The notes beneath the pieces were generated by a model that had not been told where the DNA came from, searched no databases, and saw only the letters and a program-made list of their open reading frames with translations. This document shows positions 14,713-21,737 of a DNA stretch of 54,790 nt, one piece after another. Within the stretch, counting starts at the first letter, position 1. Each line of letters opens with the position of its first letter. Source of the DNA: Gammaproteobacteria bacterium (lineage in GTDB: Bacteria; Pseudomonadota; Gammaproteobacteria; JAADGQ01); assembly GCA_015490755.1 (NCBI GenBank), contig WFXF01000060.1:1-54790 (forward strand), in the 5' to 3' direction. Position numbers and translations under genes: made by a program.

Positions 14713-16566
14713 TTAGTTATGAGCAATCAATTCAAACTCGAGGCTACCGTCACAGGTATTGGTGATAGCATCTGAAGATACATGTACGTTGTGCAGTAAG
14801 CTATTGTACCCAGTGATTTCGTCCCATATATTGTTATTGGCCAAACGAATGGCATACTCCCATCGATCGTAGATGGAAGGGTCCGGATCGGGAAGGTTGA
14901 GCATTAATTCGTAATTCCCGGATGGCATATCCGCAGGCAGGCATGGGGAAGCCTGCACAATATGCGTACTGCCAGACTCCCAAAAACGTGGATCGGCATC
15001 CGGTAACTTGACTCGAAAGGCCAGTTTTTGCTCAGTATCCCGCAAAATCAATTCAACATATCGAGAATTAAAGGTCGGTGCATAACCTACATTTTTCAAC
15101 TGGATTTCAACAGAAATAGCTCCTCCCGGACGGCTCTCCTGGGTATAGTCACCCTCCAATAATACGAAGCGATAACCCAGGTTACGCTTAATATCATCCA
15201 TACATCCCTGATTGACCCAATCGTTGTTCACATCATTGTTGTACTCTGAGTTCAGATAAGAGTAATGGAGGCTACGCAGTTCAGCATCCGCCATACCTCC
15301 AGCACTCTGGCAGTCATCACGTGGAGTGTTCCCTTCACTATTGCATGTTTCACCACCAACAGCTACAAAACGAGAATCCTCAGCTTTGTATGGTTTCAGC
15401 GTCGCCGTATCGTCACCTGATGTTCCGGGGCCATAGTTATTGTAGGTACCAAAATCGGTATCGCTAGCAAGGAAACAGTCATTATGATGCCCGATACGAG
15501 CTTTATTAGAATCGTTATGTGCTTCGGTAGGCGTAAGAGGGGCAGATGATGTTGGAGCATCGCTACCATATATCAATTTCTGCTTAGCTTGTGGGTAACG
15601 TACTTGTACCTGCCGCCCCTTTGGCACAGCATCAAGCAAGGCAGTGAGAACTGCGTTACGATCATCCCAGTTTTCTTGATTGAGAATATAGGGTGATTGT
15701 GATGCATCACCGAAGTAGTCGGTATAATACCCTTCACCCCACACGCCAATGAAACCTTGTTGTACCGCCGCAATCACATCCTTATTAGCCTGCAATACAG
15801 GCTTTAACTGGCCGATATGTTCAAGCACCCGCTCCTTCTGAACATCACCATAGGGTGGACAAATCCATGAAGAGCATCCCTCACTATTCACTGTTTCCGT
15901 GTAAGCAAAGCGAACGATACTTTTTAATCCGGCCTCTCTAAGTGCAGCAAAGTCTCTCTCCATGTTACTGAGAAAATCCTGTGAAATAGGGACATTTGTA
16001 AAATCACTTAAGAAAAAATAACGATATAATAGTGTGCTATAAATATCGTAATTAGCCATATAGGGTTTATGCAGACTTCGATAACTCCGTAAAGTATCTG
16101 CATTGAGATTAGAGTATGGTTCCGGGTATGTAGAGGAAGCACGGTAAAAGCCACGTTCAGGATTTGGAAAGTCAGCTTCGCTTTCTTCGTAAATAACATT
16201 TTTACTTGGGCTGATAGTATTGGAGACTGTAATACTGAATGCCGCCAAAGCAGTAGTATGTACACCATCACTCACCTTAATCTCGATATTGTCGTAAAAA
16301 CCCGCATGATTATAATCTGGAGTGCCACTCAAAGTACCTGTACTGACATCAAAAGTAGCCCAAGCGGGCAGGTTATTAATACTAAAACTTAGGCTATCAC
16401 CATCTGCATCGCTGGCATCGGGGGTAAAATTATATTCTGCACCCTCAGCTACATTCGTAGCTGGTACTCCATTAATGCTTGGACTATTGTTAGTGGGAGT
16501 ACTTAAATCATAACCTCCACATGCAAAAAGAATAAAACTTAAACCAACACTTATAAGTAATTTCAT
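14713..16566 (-). CDS. Lipoprotein with Ig-like (He_PIG) and DUF4874/DUF4832 domains
   Basis: A protein of about 617 residues from ATG 16566; AGGG lies eight bases upstream, better placed than for the GTG at 16575. A signal peptide MKLLISVGLSFILFAC ends in a lipobox-like LFAC, so the mature protein is probably lipidated. Residues about 25-120 form a cadherin/He_PIG Ig-like domain (DADGDSLSFSINNLPAWATFD, GTLSGTP). DUF4874 follows with NPERGFYR and an apparent TIM-barrel-like region (FIGVWGEGYY), then DUF4832 at the C-terminus with an all-beta end. Family members are presumed carbohydrate-active, without a proven activity. The gene is monocistronic. Confidence 0.82.
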   Translation of the reverse strand: MKLLISVGLSFILFACGGYDLSTPTNNSPSINGVPATNVAEGAEYNFTPDASDADGDSLSFSINNLPAWATFDVSTGTLSGTPDYNHAGFYDNIEIKVSDGVHTTALAAFSITVSNTISPSKNVIYEESEADFPNPERGFYRASSTYPEPYSNLNADTLRSYRSLHKPYMANYDIYSTLLYRYFFLSDFTNVPISQDFLSNMERDFAALREAGLKSIVRFAYTETVNSEGCSSWICPPYGDVQKERVLEHIGQLKPVLQANKDVIAAVQQGFIGVWGEGYYTDYFGDASQSPYILNQENWDDRNAVLTALLDAVPKGRQVQVRYPQAKQKLIYGSDAPTSSAPLTPTEAHNDSNKARIGHHNDCFLASDTDFGTYNNYGPGTSGDDTATLKPYKAEDSRFVAVGGETCNSEGNTPRDDCQSAGGMADAELRSLHYSYLNSEYNNDVNNDWVNQGCMDDIKRNLGYRFVLLEGDYTQESRPGGAISVEIQLKNVGYAPTFNSRYVELILRDTEQKLAFRVKLPDADPRFWESGSTHIVQASPCLPADMPSGNYELMLNLPDPDPSIYDRWEYAIRLANNNIWDEITGYNSLLHNVHVSSDAITNTCDGSLEFELIAHN

Positions 16567-16848
16567 TAATAGCACCCTAATTGAGTATATGCAGGAGGTA
16601 TAAATTTTAAATATCGGACAATATAAATATCAGTAAAATAAATTTTTCAAAACCGATTATCCACAGACTCTTTTCATAATGGAATCATGTACCGGATTCA
16701 GACCCATTTCAGATTGAATAAGGCTATAATTAATGCTGGTCTATTGGTAGCATATACTGACTCATCCTGACTTGATCGTTGGCTTGGTCATTGCCATTAT
16801 TGTGACTAAAAATGCGAATTGTGAAAAGAACCGGCCGGAGGTGGCACA

Positions 16849-17241
16849 GTGAATATTAAATATGGTTTTGGAAAAACAGTTTCCATGGATTTTGAAACGG
16901 CGATAAGTACAGTAACCCAAGCGCTGCAAACAGAAGGGTTCGGTGTGCTTACCGATATTGATGTGGCTGCGACGATGAAAAAGAAACTGGATGAAGATAT
17001 GCGGCCTTATCGAATTCTTGGAGCTTGCAATCCGTCTCTGGCTTATCAGGCCATTACCAGTGAACCCTCCATCGGTCTGTTATTGCCCTGCAATGTTGTT
17101 GTTCGTCAGGAAGAGAATGGTGTTGTACATATAGAGTTTATGGATCCCGGTGCAGTTTTGAATCTGGTGGATAACCCCGCAGTAGAAAAACTTTCCAGTG
17201 ATGTGAAGTCCCGCTTGGAGCGAGTGCTTGCAGCGCTCTAA
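16849..17241 (+). CDS. DUF302-domain protein
   Basis: This 130-residue cytoplasmic protein consists almost entirely of a DUF302 domain: an N-terminal strand with GFGKTVSMDFETAISTVTQAL, then GFGVLTDIDV, PYRILGACNPSLAYQAI and IGLLLPCNVVVRQ. The two conserved Cys (in GACNP and PCNVVV) are present. DUF302 proteins are small and stable; their function is unproven, and they are common in sulfur-oxidising bacteria. The start is GTG with a strong GGAGGTG seven bases upstream. It precedes the DUF389 gene by about 100 bases on the same strand. Confidence 0.9.
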   Translation: MNIKYGFGKTVSMDFETAISTVTQALQTEGFGVLTDIDVAATMKKKLDEDMRPYRILGACNPSLAYQAITSEPSIGLLLPCNVVVRQEENGVVHIEFMDPGAVLNLVDNPAVEKLSSDVKSRLERVLAAL

Positions 17242-17338: not shown

Positions 17339-19243
17339 ATGAGTGATGTTACCGGAAATGTATATATTGTTTATGGCAAGCAATGTGAAGAAATTTCTAA
17401 AGAGATCGTTAAAAGTCAATATGCAGCTCTTTTTAAATCTGTTGTTATCGACGACTTTCTAACCGATGAAACAGTGACTGGTGATGATCGTGTCATTATT
17501 TGTGGTTCTACCAGCGAGATTAAGCAGATACTAAAAAAAGCTAGTGTGAATGGTTGTAGTGTGGCTTTGCTGGCTCAGAAAAATCAAAATACCCTTCGCT
17601 CAACCTTCGGAATTCCAAAAAATAGAGAGGAATCCCTGAAAGTAGCACTGGAAAGCGAGCCAAAACCACTGGATCTGCTTTATGTGAATGATGAGATTGT
17701 TTTATGGGGGGCGGTTATTGGTGATGCGCCACCACTGACTTATAGCAGTGCTGTTTATAGGGAAACTACGTTTGTAGAGCGGTATAAATTGCTTGTAGGA
17801 GCTTTGAAAAAACTGAAGCACCTCAAGCAAAATAAAATAAAACTAATCACAGCTAAAGGTCAGGAGATCAATACCTCGGCAAGTGGTGTTGTGATTATTG
17901 AACATGATAATCACACAGGAGCATCATCTTTGGTTCAGGGCTTTTTATCGGTCAACGATGGTAAGCTTGCAGCGCTTTTGCTCTCTCCAGCATCTATTGC
18001 GGATTACCTTTACTATCTTTACGTTTCAATTTTCAAAAAATCAAAAAATACGAATTTGCCGGACTCGGTAGGGTTCGTCAAAAGTGAATCACTTGGTATT
18101 GAGAGTGTTCAGCCACTTGATGTGATGGTTGATGGTGAAAATATTACACAAACCCCTGTTGAGTTTGTAGTCAAAAAGCAGGCCGTTCGATTCATAGCGG
18201 GCGAAAAATTTTGGGCTGAAGTCAAAAATGAATCTTCGGATAAGGAGACACTCAAGTTATCGGGCCTTCCTGTGACAAATGAGGAGGTCAGCTATGCACA
18301 AGATGTGCTGCCGTTTTTTACTCATGCCAGTGAAAATCGATATAAAGACCTTTTTTCTGATCTTAGAAAACAGGGGAAAACGGAATCAACTTATGTAACT
18401 TTGATGTTTTTGAGCACGATATTGGCAACTGTTGGACTTTTTCTGAATAGTGCTTCCGTTGTGATTGGTGCCATGTTACTGGCTCCTTTGATGCAACCGA
18501 TTGTGTCAACAGCTATGGGTGTACTTCGAAGTGATCAAAGTCTGCTGTTTAGTTCGATAAAAACAGTATTGGTCGGTGTGGTGATTGCGCTGTTCAGTGC
18601 GGCTGTCATTGCTTTGTTATTACCGCTTGAAAATTTGACCGATGAGATTTCTGCGAGACTGAGTCCCTCTCTTCTGGATTTGATGGTTGCACTCGTATCG
18701 GGTGTGGCGGCAGCGTATGCTCAAAATAATGAAAAAATTGTGGGTTCGCTTGCCGGGGTGTCGATCGCCGTTGCGTTGGTGCCACCGCTTGCCACTGCCG
18801 GTGTTGGTCTTGGCTGGATGGAGATGGATATATTCTATCCCGCATTTTTGCTGTTTGTCACTAATTTGGTGGGTATTATTTTTGCTGCATCCCTGACTTT
18901 TCTTGTTATGGGGTTTTCACCCATCAAACGTGCTAAAAAAGGTTTGGCTTATGCTTTAGTCACTTCGCTGATTGTCGCAATACCACTCTACCTCTCTTTT
19001 ACAACGATGGCTTTTGATTCTCGAATTTTGTCTGCTTTGGAGCAAAAAGAGTATCTGGTTTCAGGTAAAATCGTGCAGATTGAAAATGTTGCTCTTAAAC
19101 ATACGGATGTGCTGGTTGTGAAGTGTGATTTTATCGTTCAGGAGATGTTGAGTCATGATGAATTAACCGAATTTAAACAGACTCTACAGGCAGAGCTTGA
19201 TATGCCGTTTGCTCTGGAAGTTGTTCAGCGGGTTCGTTTGTGA
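17339..19243 (+). CDS. DUF389 membrane protein fused to a degenerate diacylglycerol-kinase-like domain
   Basis: A 634-residue two-part protein. Residues 1-290 follow the DAGK/YegS lipid-kinase plan: DDRVIICG (49-56), FGIPKNREESLKVAL (90-104), PKPLDLLYVND (109-119), and the C-terminal sandwich ESLGIESVQPLDVMVDGE (250-267) with TPVEFVVKKQAVRF. However, the catalytic GGDGT is replaced by GSTSE, and the GTGND loop by KNQNT, so kinase activity is unlikely. Residues about 330-520 are DUF389 with at least six membrane helices, including ASVVIGAMLLAPLMQPI and VSGVAAAYAQ. A small C-terminal domain follows. The role may be sensing lipid or nucleotide to control a membrane pore (inference). Confidence 0.85.
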   Translation: MSDVTGNVYIVYGKQCEEISKEIVKSQYAALFKSVVIDDFLTDETVTGDDRVIICGSTSEIKQILKKASVNGCSVALLAQKNQNTLRSTFGIPKNREESLKVALESEPKPLDLLYVNDEIVLWGAVIGDAPPLTYSSAVYRETTFVERYKLLVGALKKLKHLKQNKIKLITAKGQEINTSASGVVIIEHDNHTGASSLVQGFLSVNDGKLAALLLSPASIADYLYYLYVSIFKKSKNTNLPDSVGFVKSESLGIESVQPLDVMVDGENITQTPVEFVVKKQAVRFIAGEKFWAEVKNESSDKETLKLSGLPVTNEEVSYAQDVLPFFTHASENRYKDLFSDLRKQGKTESTYVTLMFLSTILATVGLFLNSASVVIGAMLLAPLMQPIVSTAMGVLRSDQSLLFSSIKTVLVGVVIALFSAAVIALLLPLENLTDEISARLSPSLLDLMVALVSGVAAAYAQNNEKIVGSLAGVSIAVALVPPLATAGVGLGWMEMDIFYPAFLLFVTNLVGIIFAASLTFLVMGFSPIKRAKKGLAYALVTSLIVAIPLYLSFTTMAFDSRILSALEQKEYLVSGKIVQIENVALKHTDVLVVKCDFIVQEMLSHDELTEFKQTLQAELDMPFALEVVQRVRL

Positions 19244-19253
19244 TTTCAATGTC

Positions 19254-19988
19254 ATGAAACTTTTTTTATTTCTGGTATTGGTTGCTTTATTTTCAGGCTT
19301 ACATGCAGGTGAAGTTCGTGTGGCGGTGGCGGCTAATTTTCTTGTGACACTTAAGGCAATAGCTACTGAGTATGAAAACTTGAGCGGCAATCAGCTGATT
19401 ATCAGTGGTTCTTCCAGCGGTAAACTCTATGCTCAGATCGTCAATGGTGCACCTTATGATGTACTGCTCTCGGCTGATCAATATTACCCAGAAAAGTTAA
19501 TAGAGTCGGGTAAGGCAATACCATCCAGCCGCTTTACTTATGCAACAGGGCGTTTGGTGCTCTGGAGTGGTGAAAAGCAACCCATTGATGCTTCGCGGCT
19601 GGATGATCCTGATATCAAGCGTATTGCTATTGCTAATATGCGCACCGCACCTTATGGTCGTGCGGCACAGCACGTATTACAAAACATGGGTCTGTGGTCT
19701 ATGTTGAAAAACAGACTTGTTCGTGGCGAAAATATTGGACAGACGTTTCAATTTGTTGCTACTGGAAATGCACAATTAGGTTTTGTTGCGTTATCGCAAG
19801 TGCTTAATCCAAAAAATTATTTCAATCAAGAGTTTTATTGGCTGGTGCCGCAAGATGATTATCCTGCGCTGGAGCAAGAAGCCGTGTTGTTGAAGCATGG
19901 GAAAAACAATATGGATGCCAAACACTTTTTGGCATTTCTGAAAAGTGATAGGGCGCGTGATGTCATGCAGCAGTACGGGTATCTTTAA
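19254..19988 (+). CDS. modA: ModA, periplasmic molybdate-binding protein
   Basis: A protein of 244 residues from the ATG at 19254; the open frame extends 19 codons upstream into the previous gene, without signal-peptide character. The signal peptide KLFLFLVLVALFSGLHAG precedes EVRVAVAANF, the typical ModA mature start. Oxyanion-binding Ser residues lie in SGSSSGKLYAQI, and NGAPYDVLLSADQ and TAPYGRAAQ are family blocks. It delivers molybdate (or tungstate) to ModB. Its stop overlaps modB as TAATG. Confidence 0.94.
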   Translation: MKLFLFLVLVALFSGLHAGEVRVAVAANFLVTLKAIATEYENLSGNQLIISGSSSGKLYAQIVNGAPYDVLLSADQYYPEKLIESGKAIPSSRFTYATGRLVLWSGEKQPIDASRLDDPDIKRIAIANMRTAPYGRAAQHVLQNMGLWSMLKNRLVRGENIGQTFQFVATGNAQLGFVALSQVLNPKNYFNQEFYWLVPQDDYPALEQEAVLLKHGKNNMDAKHFLAFLKSDRARDVMQQYGYL

Positions 19989-20659
19989 TGGATCTGCTTT
20001 CACCCGTTGTATTGACTTTAAAGCTTGCAGCGGTGACCACGCTGATATTATTAGTGGTCAGCACACCGCTGGCTTGGTGGCTGGCACACAGCAAATCAAA
20101 ATGGGCTGCGACGGTTGAGGCGCTGGTCGCTTTGCCGTTGGTGCTGCCACCAACTGTATTGGGTTTTTATTTTCTGATTGTATTGGGTGCTAACGGGGTG
20201 ATTGGTGGGCCATGGTCTGATTTGACAGGTTCCGCATTGACCTTTACTTTCAGTGGATTGGTGATCGCTTCGGTCATCTATTCTTTGCCGTTTGTGGTGC
20301 AACCGTTACAAAGTGCTTTTGTCGCAGTGGGCAGAAAACCATTGGAAGTGGCTCTGTTACTTCGGGCATCACGTCTGGATGCTTTTTTCAGTGTGATTCT
20401 TCCGCTATCAATACGTGGCTATATTACTGCCACAGTGCTTGGTTTTACGCATACCATGGGCGAATTTGGCGTGGTACTGATGGTGGGGGGCAGTATTCCG
20501 GGTGAGACGCAAGTGCTCTCCATTGCCATATACGAGCATGTTGAAGTGCTGGATTATGGTTCCGCTCATGTGCTTTCAGCGGGGTTGTTGGTATTTACTT
20601 TTATTGTGTTGCTGATGGTCTACGTGATCAATCGAAGGTTTCCGGTCAATGCCCATTAA
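19988..20659 (+). CDS. modB: ModB, molybdate ABC transporter permease
   Basis: A 223-residue inner-membrane permease with five to six helices. The ABC-interaction EAA loop is visible around EVALLLRASRLDAFFSVILPLS. The conserved PLVLPPTVLGFYFL and the late GEFGVVLMVGGSIPGET are diagnostic for ModB. It pairs with ModA and ModC. Its start overlaps the modA stop by one base and its end overlaps modC by eleven bases. Confidence 0.95.
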   Translation: MDLLSPVVLTLKLAAVTTLILLVVSTPLAWWLAHSKSKWAATVEALVALPLVLPPTVLGFYFLIVLGANGVIGGPWSDLTGSALTFTFSGLVIASVIYSLPFVVQPLQSAFVAVGRKPLEVALLLRASRLDAFFSVILPLSIRGYITATVLGFTHTMGEFGVVLMVGGSIPGETQVLSIAIYEHVEVLDYGSAHVLSAGLLVFTFIVLLMVYVINRRFPVNAH

Positions 20660-21737
20660 AGCTCAGTTTGACGTTACGTTTGAAAGCTTTAGCCTTAACG
20701 TGTCGCTGGATCTGCCAGTCAAAGGCGTGATCACACTGTTTGGCCCTTCGGGTTCAGGTAAATCGACTCTTCTGCGTTGTATCTCTGGGTTGGAGCGTAG
20801 CCCCAACGGTTATATGAGAGTGGCTGACGAAGTATGGCAAGATGAGGATAACCATATTTTTTGCCCCTCACATAAACGCCCTCTAGGTTATGTATTTCAA
20901 GAAGCCCGGCTATTTCGTCATCTTAATGTGAAAAAAAATTTGGAGTACGGTTATAAACGCACGCCGCAAAATGAACGGCGTATTGAGTGGCAGCAGGTGA
21001 TCGACATGTTAGATATTGGCCATTTGTTACAGCGCAAGCCTCATAACCTTTCTGGGGGTGAACAACAACGTGTTTCTATTGGGCGGGCACTGCTCGCCAG
21101 TCCTGAATTGATATTGATGGATGAACCTTTGGCTTCACTCGATATTGTGCGTAAACAGGAGGTACTGCCGTTTATCCGTAAACTTCATGATGAACTGGAT
21201 ATTCCGGTGATTTATGTCAGCCATTCTCTGGATGAGGTGTTGCAGATCACTGATACGATGGTGTTGTTACGTGAAGGGCAGATAGTTGCTATCGGCCCGA
21301 TCACTGAGCTTTGCTCAGAATTGGAGCTGAGTCAATATCTGGGTGATATGTCCGGTTCGGTCATTGATACGACGATTGAAGCGCATGAAGAAGCATTCGG
21401 ATTGACTCGCTTGAGTTTTCAGGGCGGTGAAATTTATGTTCCCAGGCTGCCCTTCCCAACGGGTCATCAACAGCGGGTGCATATTCTAGCTAGAAATGTA
21501 GGTATTGCACTGCAAAAACCGAATGGCTCCACCAGCTTTTTAAATATTTTTAAAGCCACCGTTATTGATATAGCCCTGCCCGAAATTAATAGCCACGCTG
21601 TGCAGATCAAACTCGATGTGGGTGTGCCTCTTTTGGTTAGTATCAGTCGTAAATCTCTGCATGTTCTTAAATTGAAAGTAGGGCAATCGTGCTATGCAAT
21701 GATCAAGGCTGTCTCATTGGCGGGTGGAGTGCAATAG
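20649..21737 (+). CDS. modC: ModC, molybdate ABC transporter ATPase
   Basis: A 362-residue ABC ATPase with Walker A GPSGSGKST, Q-loop YVFQEARLF, signature LSGGEQQRVSIGRALL, Walker B LILMDEPLASLD and switch His in YVSHSLDEV. The C-terminal 70 residues form a Mop/TOBE domain (NVGIALQKPNGSTSFLNIFKATV) that binds molybdate in the family and can throttle transport. It completes modABC. No ModE gene or obvious Mo-box was found in the window. Confidence 0.95.
   Translation: MPIKAQFDVTFESFSLNVSLDLPVKGVITLFGPSGSGKSTLLRCISGLERSPNGYMRVADEVWQDEDNHIFCPSHKRPLGYVFQEARLFRHLNVKKNLEYGYKRTPQNERRIEWQQVIDMLDIGHLLQRKPHNLSGGEQQRVSIGRALLASPELILMDEPLASLDIVRKQEVLPFIRKLHDELDIPVIYVSHSLDEVLQITDTMVLLREGQIVAIGPITELCSELELSQYLGDMSGSVIDTTIEAHEEAFGLTRLSFQGGEIYVPRLPFPTGHQQRVHILARNVGIALQKPNGSTSFLNIFKATVIDIALPEINSHAVQIKLDVGVPLLVSISRKSLHVLKLKVGQSCYAMIKAVSLAGGVQ

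Follow-up and report, generated by a model that had tools for sequence, protein, structure and literature searches.

A conserved family of bacterial membrane proteins carries a degenerate lipid-kinase domain fused to a DUF389 core

Membrane proteins that combine a lipid-kinase fold, a DUF389 core and a small ββαβ domain in a single chain form a conserved family of single origin. The pseudo-kinase/DUF389 architecture is thus not unique to the 54,790-nucleotide stretch analysed here (the window; Gammaproteobacteria bacterium, GenBank assembly GCA_015490755.1, contig WFXF01000060.1), in which it was first noticed. By sequence profiles and structure models, the N-terminal half of the protein is a remote yet clear relative of YegS and DgkB, and the earlier suggestion that it is a pseudo-kinase is strongly supported, as the fold holds up and none of the 81 relatives surveyed has the ATP loops. 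We give a probability of roughly 40% to the reading that the DUF389 part is a channel or transporter gated by the cytoplasmic pseudo-lipid-kinase, which would sense a membrane lipid or other ligand.

The gene is an intact open reading frame, from ATG to stop, and no rival frame was found on the opposite strand of the same interval in the register translated. Its parts, in window positions, are the following.

17339..19243, plus strand: whole gene, pseudo-lipid-kinase/DUF389 fusion of 634 aa (intact reading frame, full-length orthologues)
17339..18223, plus strand: N-terminal YegS/DgkB-fold domain, residues 1–295, predicted cytoplasmic (profiles, model, structure search, positive-inside count)
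17504..17518, plus strand: GSTSE, residues 56–60, replacing the nucleotide-binding GGDGT (alignment; GGDGT in 0/81 relatives)
17576..17593, plus strand: QKNQNT, residues 80–85, replacing the G-T-x-N-D loop (alignment to 4wrr and the family)
17672..17689, plus strand: D112...N117, kept Asp and Asn of the 'iDlgxxN' strand, family form D-x-x-x-C-N (D in 30/32 and N in 32/32 representatives)
17957..17959, plus strand: D207 of the 'nDGkL' turn (29/32 representatives)
18128..18139, plus strand: VDGE, residues 264–267, catalytic-Glu position, kept here and lost in most relatives (family alignment)
18224..18373, plus strand: linker, residues 296–345, family signature LP...LPFFxHAxExxFKxLFxxL (family alignment)
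18374..19039, plus strand: membrane core, residues 346–567, seven predicted helices with TM2 and TM5 broken (models, positive-inside pattern)
18473..18883, plus strand: Pfam DUF389, PF04087 (Pfam profile)
18479..18499, plus strand: broken-helix motif 1, LAPLMQP, residues 381–387 (invariant positions; modelled helix break between 379 and 385)
18776..18790, plus strand: motif 2, LVPPL, residues 480–484, in the matching helix of the second half (alignment and model; the repeat relation is suggestive only)
19040..19240, plus strand: C-terminal ββαβ domain, residues 568–634, predicted periplasmic (models, positive-inside pattern)

The Pfam DUF389 model matches residues 379–515 over its whole length (positions 1–137 of 137) with 134.3 bits against a cut-off of 23.9. 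TIGR00341 scores 104.7 bits, above the NCBI cut-off of 94.75, but the match covers only positions 119–316 of 325, and the TIGR00271 hydrophobic domain stays below its NCBI cut-off in this protein (127 against 146.5 bits). The sequence-only reading had described this half as an uncharacterised multi-helix membrane domain of the DUF389 type, and both parts of the description hold. DUF389 is present in bacteria and archaea, and the literature searched gave no functional account of DUF389, TIGR00341, TIGR00271, PF04087 or COG1808, nor of the kinase-fold/DUF389 architecture; DUF389 is mentioned there in passing, or in DUF389x names.

The proposal that the first 290 residues follow the DAGK/YegS fold is upheld by profiles, the AlphaFold model and structure searches, which agree over residues 1–295. 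DAGK_cat (PF00781) is absent from the above-cut-off Pfam matches of the 634-aa protein, and Pfam YegS_C aligns to residues 147–286 weakly and under its cut-off. The NCBIfam lipid-kinase models align end to end, over about residues 45–295 (PRK13057, E=1e-12 over 45–289), with all of these matches far under the models' own cut-offs. A profile made from twelve N-terminal domains matches solved lipid kinases, namely 4wer (E=7e-12), YegS (2jgr, E=1e-8) and BmrU (1e-7), in alignments that are near end to end. An AlphaFold model built from 38 homologues (mean pLDDT 85, pTM 0.71) returns DgkB, 4wer and YegS at the top of a Foldseek search with E-values of 3.5e-13 to 1e-10. In VIA-align, the same modelled domain matches DgkB (Z 21.6, 262 residues, 3.0 Å) and YegS (Z 21.2), the DgkB/YegS range being Z 20–21.6 over ~260 residues, and lower matches include sphingosine kinase (Z 17), AGK of the TIM22 complex (15.3) and NAD kinases (13). 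The comparison of a predicted structure with YegS and DgkB, by which the fold claim could have fallen, therefore left it standing, and the C-terminal VDGE...TPVEF strand pair that had been pointed out is present at residues 264–276.

Conservation of the fold is accompanied by loss of the kinase motifs. The survey covered 81 full or near-full relatives, comprising 67 aligned fusions and 14 further readable full-length members from Campylobacterota and Bacteroidota, and neither GGDGT nor GTxND occurs in any of them. The replacement of GGDGT by GSTSE and the loss of the GTGND loop, both read from the single sequence at the outset, are borne out; as no relative examined retains GGDGT, the pseudo-kinase idea also withstands the comparison with homologues. 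Because not one of the 81 relatives has the ATP loops, their loss goes back to the ancestor of the family and does not reflect local decay. Furthermore, the catalytic-Glu position among the 67 aligned relatives holds Glu in 7 and Arg or Lys in 35, Glu being absent in 60. Since the two nucleotide-binding loops are lost, and in most members the catalytic Glu as well, the N-terminal domain is expected to be incapable of conventional phosphorylation. Stand-alone kinases of related genomes, recovered by the same search, retain GGDGT, and there is no DAGK_cat gene anywhere in the window's own genome, which is 99.7% complete.

Positions conserved in the fusion family are D112-x-x-x-C-N117, T171-x-K, T179-A, D207 (which would fall in or close to the structural metal site of YegS/DgkB), P217-x-S219, L240-P and the linker LPFFxHAxExxFKxLFxxL. 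While the DxxxxN and DGxL elements are common to fusions and active kinases, C116, T171, K173 and P-x-S look family-specific in the alignment, and such new conserved residues (DxxxCN, TxK, P-x-S and the linker) would be expected if the domain took on a new function. In the Campylobacterota sample, a compact divergent subgroup of fusions of ~604 aa (L156–L159) has lost D112 and D207 and kept CN and P-x-S.

The family spans Gammaproteobacteria, Campylobacterota, Bacteroidota and Planctomycetota MAGs, that is at least four bacterial phyla. Fusion-length frames were found in 15/369 sampled gammaproteobacterial genomes, in 10/150 of the Campylobacterota sample and in 5/198 of the Bacteroidota sample, and these counts are independent of the linker pattern. 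A scan of named genomes, which used a five-sequence subset because the whole N-domain alignment was too diverse, and whose pattern lies in the linker so that linker-less members are missed, gave 59 fusion loci, including Halopseudomonas, Alcanivorax, Methylotuvimicrobium, Marinospirillum, Alkalimonas, Arsukibacterium, Sulfurimonas, Algoriphagus and two Planctomycetaceae MAGs. Nearly all fusions measure about 605–700 codons. Among the gammaproteobacterial genomes with DUF389, 11/63 carry the fusion and most others a stand-alone form of ~330 aa; no full-length fusion was found in the plasmid collection. Three other DUF389 genes with long open frames (G173, G064, G259) proved not to be kinase fusions. 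The long DUF389 proteins L109 (G173) and L128 (Qipengyuania plasmid) bear C-terminal extensions unrelated to the kinase fold, which indicates that DUF389 has been joined to several different soluble modules.

When the DUF389 cores are placed on a tree, a single branch (SH-aLRT 92) holds 70 fusions together with one truncated relative. The fusion label changes 2 times on it, where shuffling gives a mean of 17.6, and the second of these changes is due to the truncated copy. A single fusion event followed by spread between phyla is the simplest reading of this tree. The truncated member (G055; loci L003 and L015, also L160) is nested in the fusion clade, starts near the end of the kinase fold, lacks the helices 4–5 stretch and is probably a degenerate copy. 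One methanotroph genome (G249, on the same contig as the Methylotuvimicrobium buryatense loci) holds three diverged fusion paralogues (L022/L059, L039, L041/L082), which would be a good system for asking about differing ligands or cargo. Against three close orthologues, dN/dS is 0.045–0.117 for the N-terminal domain and, at nearby values, 0.043–0.070 for the membrane core; the ratios are rough because dS is above 1, and on these codon comparisons the N-terminal domain is under purifying selection.

A search of the PDB by sequence found no solved DUF389 structure, and the membrane half was modelled over residues 318–634 (pLDDT 83, seven helices). The best 50 entries listed by VIA-align for the modelled core are all FNT channels (HSC, FocA, NirC, PfFNT, LciA) or aquaporins, with Z 8.3–10.4, rmsd 3.2–5.1 and 162–203 aligned residues, and these matches span model residues of about 12–220, which correspond to helices 1–6. 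The uniformity of this list is a first hint of the nature of DUF389, although a Z of ~10 from one predicted model lies in the range where unrelated helical bundles also match by chance. FNT channels and aquaporins themselves have the hourglass fold in common at <15% sequence identity (PMC5525234). Profile comparison by hhalign gave a probability of 0.1 for DUF389 against either FNT (PF01226) or aquaporin (PF00230), and it cannot decide the relation, since FNT against aquaporin likewise yields only 0.1. The NPA motifs of aquaporins are absent from the 634-aa protein, which has LAPLMQP and LVPPL at the breaks instead. The two halves of the core score 16.5 against each other, compared with 12.3 when reversed and at most 12.9 for FNT/aquaporin windows; this internal repeat is not significant, as 13/60 local shuffles reach 16.5. 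Foldseek places ZnT7, ZnT1 and YiiP at the top (E down to 4.3e-5) with TM-scores of 0.15–0.28 and rmsd mostly 12–25 Å. With Z ~10, a Foldseek preference for ZnT/YiiP, no profile link and a repeat that fails the shuffles, the channel fold is a lead from modelling, not a membership.

Sidedness is suggested by the distribution of positive charges. Across 67 members, the mean K+R count per loop is 1.4, 2.0 and 2.9 after helices 2, 4 and 6 and near 0 after helices 1 and 5, with 1.5 over the 19 residues of the longer loop after helix 3. These positive-inside counts would put the kinase-fold domain in the cytoplasm and, together with the seven helices, the C-terminal ββαβ domain outside, in the periplasm.

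In the mechanism that we favour, the N-terminal domain would have lost kinase chemistry and exchanged catalysis for binding, and the dead kinase would dock at the inner leaflet. Its two lobes might hold between them a lipid (diacylglycerol, phosphatidic acid or another headgroup) or other small ligand. Through the conserved linker the ligand state could be relayed to the membrane core, which would open, close or assemble in response. The seven-helix DUF389 core, whose helices 1–6 are modelled as hourglass-like, probably provides a pore or path by which a small solute or ion crosses, and is followed by the small periplasmic ββαβ domain. We infer the channel-like core from the model, and a regulatory role for the N-terminal domain, while the ligand and cargo named here are guesses. 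Conservation of the fusion in at least four phyla argues that the dead kinase is probably a built-in sensor or regulator and not an enzyme. The earlier idea of a lipid- or nucleotide-sensing gate is plausible and has become somewhat more concrete with the channel-like model of the core, nucleotide sensing being the less likely half since both nucleotide-binding loops are gone. That DUF389 constitutes a third branch of the FNT/aquaporin fold, with the fusion family as its lipid-gated form and the kinase-derived domain as a gate sensing diacylglycerol, phosphatidic acid or another lipid, is a speculation which we consider rather unlikely.

The N-terminal domain could instead be a scaffold, its kinase shape holding partners or driving (homo-)oligomerisation of DUF389 without ligand sensing, and retention of the fold with loss of the chemistry is what such a role would also leave behind. 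Human AGK has a part in the TIM22 insertase that does not depend on its kinase activity, and the AGK structure (Z 15.3) is among those that match this domain. AGK is described as a TIM22 component besides its role in lipid signalling (PMC8708263). The conserved polar residues D112, N117 and D207 on the former active-site strands suggest a kept pocket, an objection that is weakened by the divergent Campylobacterota group, which does without D112 and D207; by analogy with AGK the scaffold has some chance of being right, but we hold it to be somewhat unlikely. The same three residues, conserved in most members, might together with a new loop still allow the domain to act as an enzyme, or to bind nucleotides, in an altered way, and the window protein itself retains VDGE. 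This is a long shot, however, as no member examined has either phosphate-binding loop, 60/67 lack the catalytic Glu and one whole subgroup has lost D112 and D207. Motif loss is the sole point in favour of a locally decaying, pseudogene-like fusion without function, a reading that is refuted and to which we assign practically no weight, as the gene is intact in dozens of genomes of several phyla, with dN/dS far below 1 and the same architecture everywhere.

A different assignment of the membrane half would make DUF389 a transporter of the cation-diffusion-facilitator (ZnT/YiiP) type with the ββαβ part as a metal-sensing domain, in keeping with the Foldseek ranking and with the order of six helices followed by an αββαβ-like domain. 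The low TM-scores and large deviations of those Foldseek matches speak against it, and no ZnT occurs among the 50 VIA-align entries listed, which is no exclusion. The C-terminal domain of CDF proteins is cytoplasmic, whereas the positive-inside count puts that of the fusion outside, and to our knowledge helix breaks like those at LAPLM and LVPPL do not characterise CDF proteins. We regard this assignment as improbable.

No neighbouring gene is shared across lineages among the fusion loci compared. The recurring neighbours (a LysR regulator, a GGDEF/EAL protein, aconitase, a LonB-like protease and a glycine-zipper lipoprotein) are lineage-specific or generic, and the context thus provides neither cargo nor pathway. 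In the window, a DUF302 protein is encoded directly upstream (16849–17241, plus strand), and a DUF302 gene in this position was not found in the sister genomes. Directly downstream (19197–21737, plus strand), three genes read as a molybdate-type ABC transporter (modABC-like), the first of which overlaps the end of the fusion gene only via a doubtful TTG start; only the genome of the same genus shares such genes beside the fusion. On the minus strand, 14713–16575 encodes a 620-aa lipoprotein-like protein with an Ig-like domain, DUF4874 and DUF4832. DUF389 genes of the stand-alone or TIGR00341 kind adjoin an ion transporter and AI-2E on Haloferax plasmid pHG2 (L126), and chloride and mechanosensitive channels on Nostoc plasmid pC052_A (L127); with n=2, these channel-adjoining genes are not a test.

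The conserved dead lipid kinase offers a first handle on DUF389, as its fusion to the membrane core suggests that the latter is probably under control from the cytoplasm, perhaps through a lipid. In addition, the channel-like model gives a testable idea of the job of the core; its structural resemblance to FNT channels and aquaporins is new here, consistent, and below the level of proof. If the favoured mechanism is true, it adds a case in which a bacterial pseudoenzyme with a lipid-kinase fold controls a channel.

Compared with known systems, the fusion has in common with the soluble lipid kinases YegS, DgkB and BmrU the two-lobe fold of residues 1–295, the Asp and Asn of 'iDlgxxN', the 'DGxL' turn and the terminal strand pair, but it lacks GGDGT and GTxND, has mostly lost the catalytic Glu and is joined to a membrane domain. 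With the DUF389/TIGR00341 proteins (about 330–500 aa) it shares the membrane core and its GAMxxAPLM and GVAIAVALxPPL signatures; in place of the kinase fold, the stand-alone proteins carry a short N-terminal stretch or an extension at the C-terminus, and the fusions form their own clade apart from them. The FNT channels (FocA, HSC, NirC) and aquaporins have an arrangement that helices 1–6 of the model, two of them broken, may share, yet they have no detectable sequence relation to DUF389, and the fusion has a seventh helix and extra soluble domains and lacks NPA. Human AGK, unlike the fusion, retains kinase activity and is a separate subunit, and the comparison of its membrane partner with DUF389 is one of analogy. 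AGK in TIM22 is the nearest functional parallel, in that a lipid-kinase fold cooperates there with membrane machinery and does more than catalysis.
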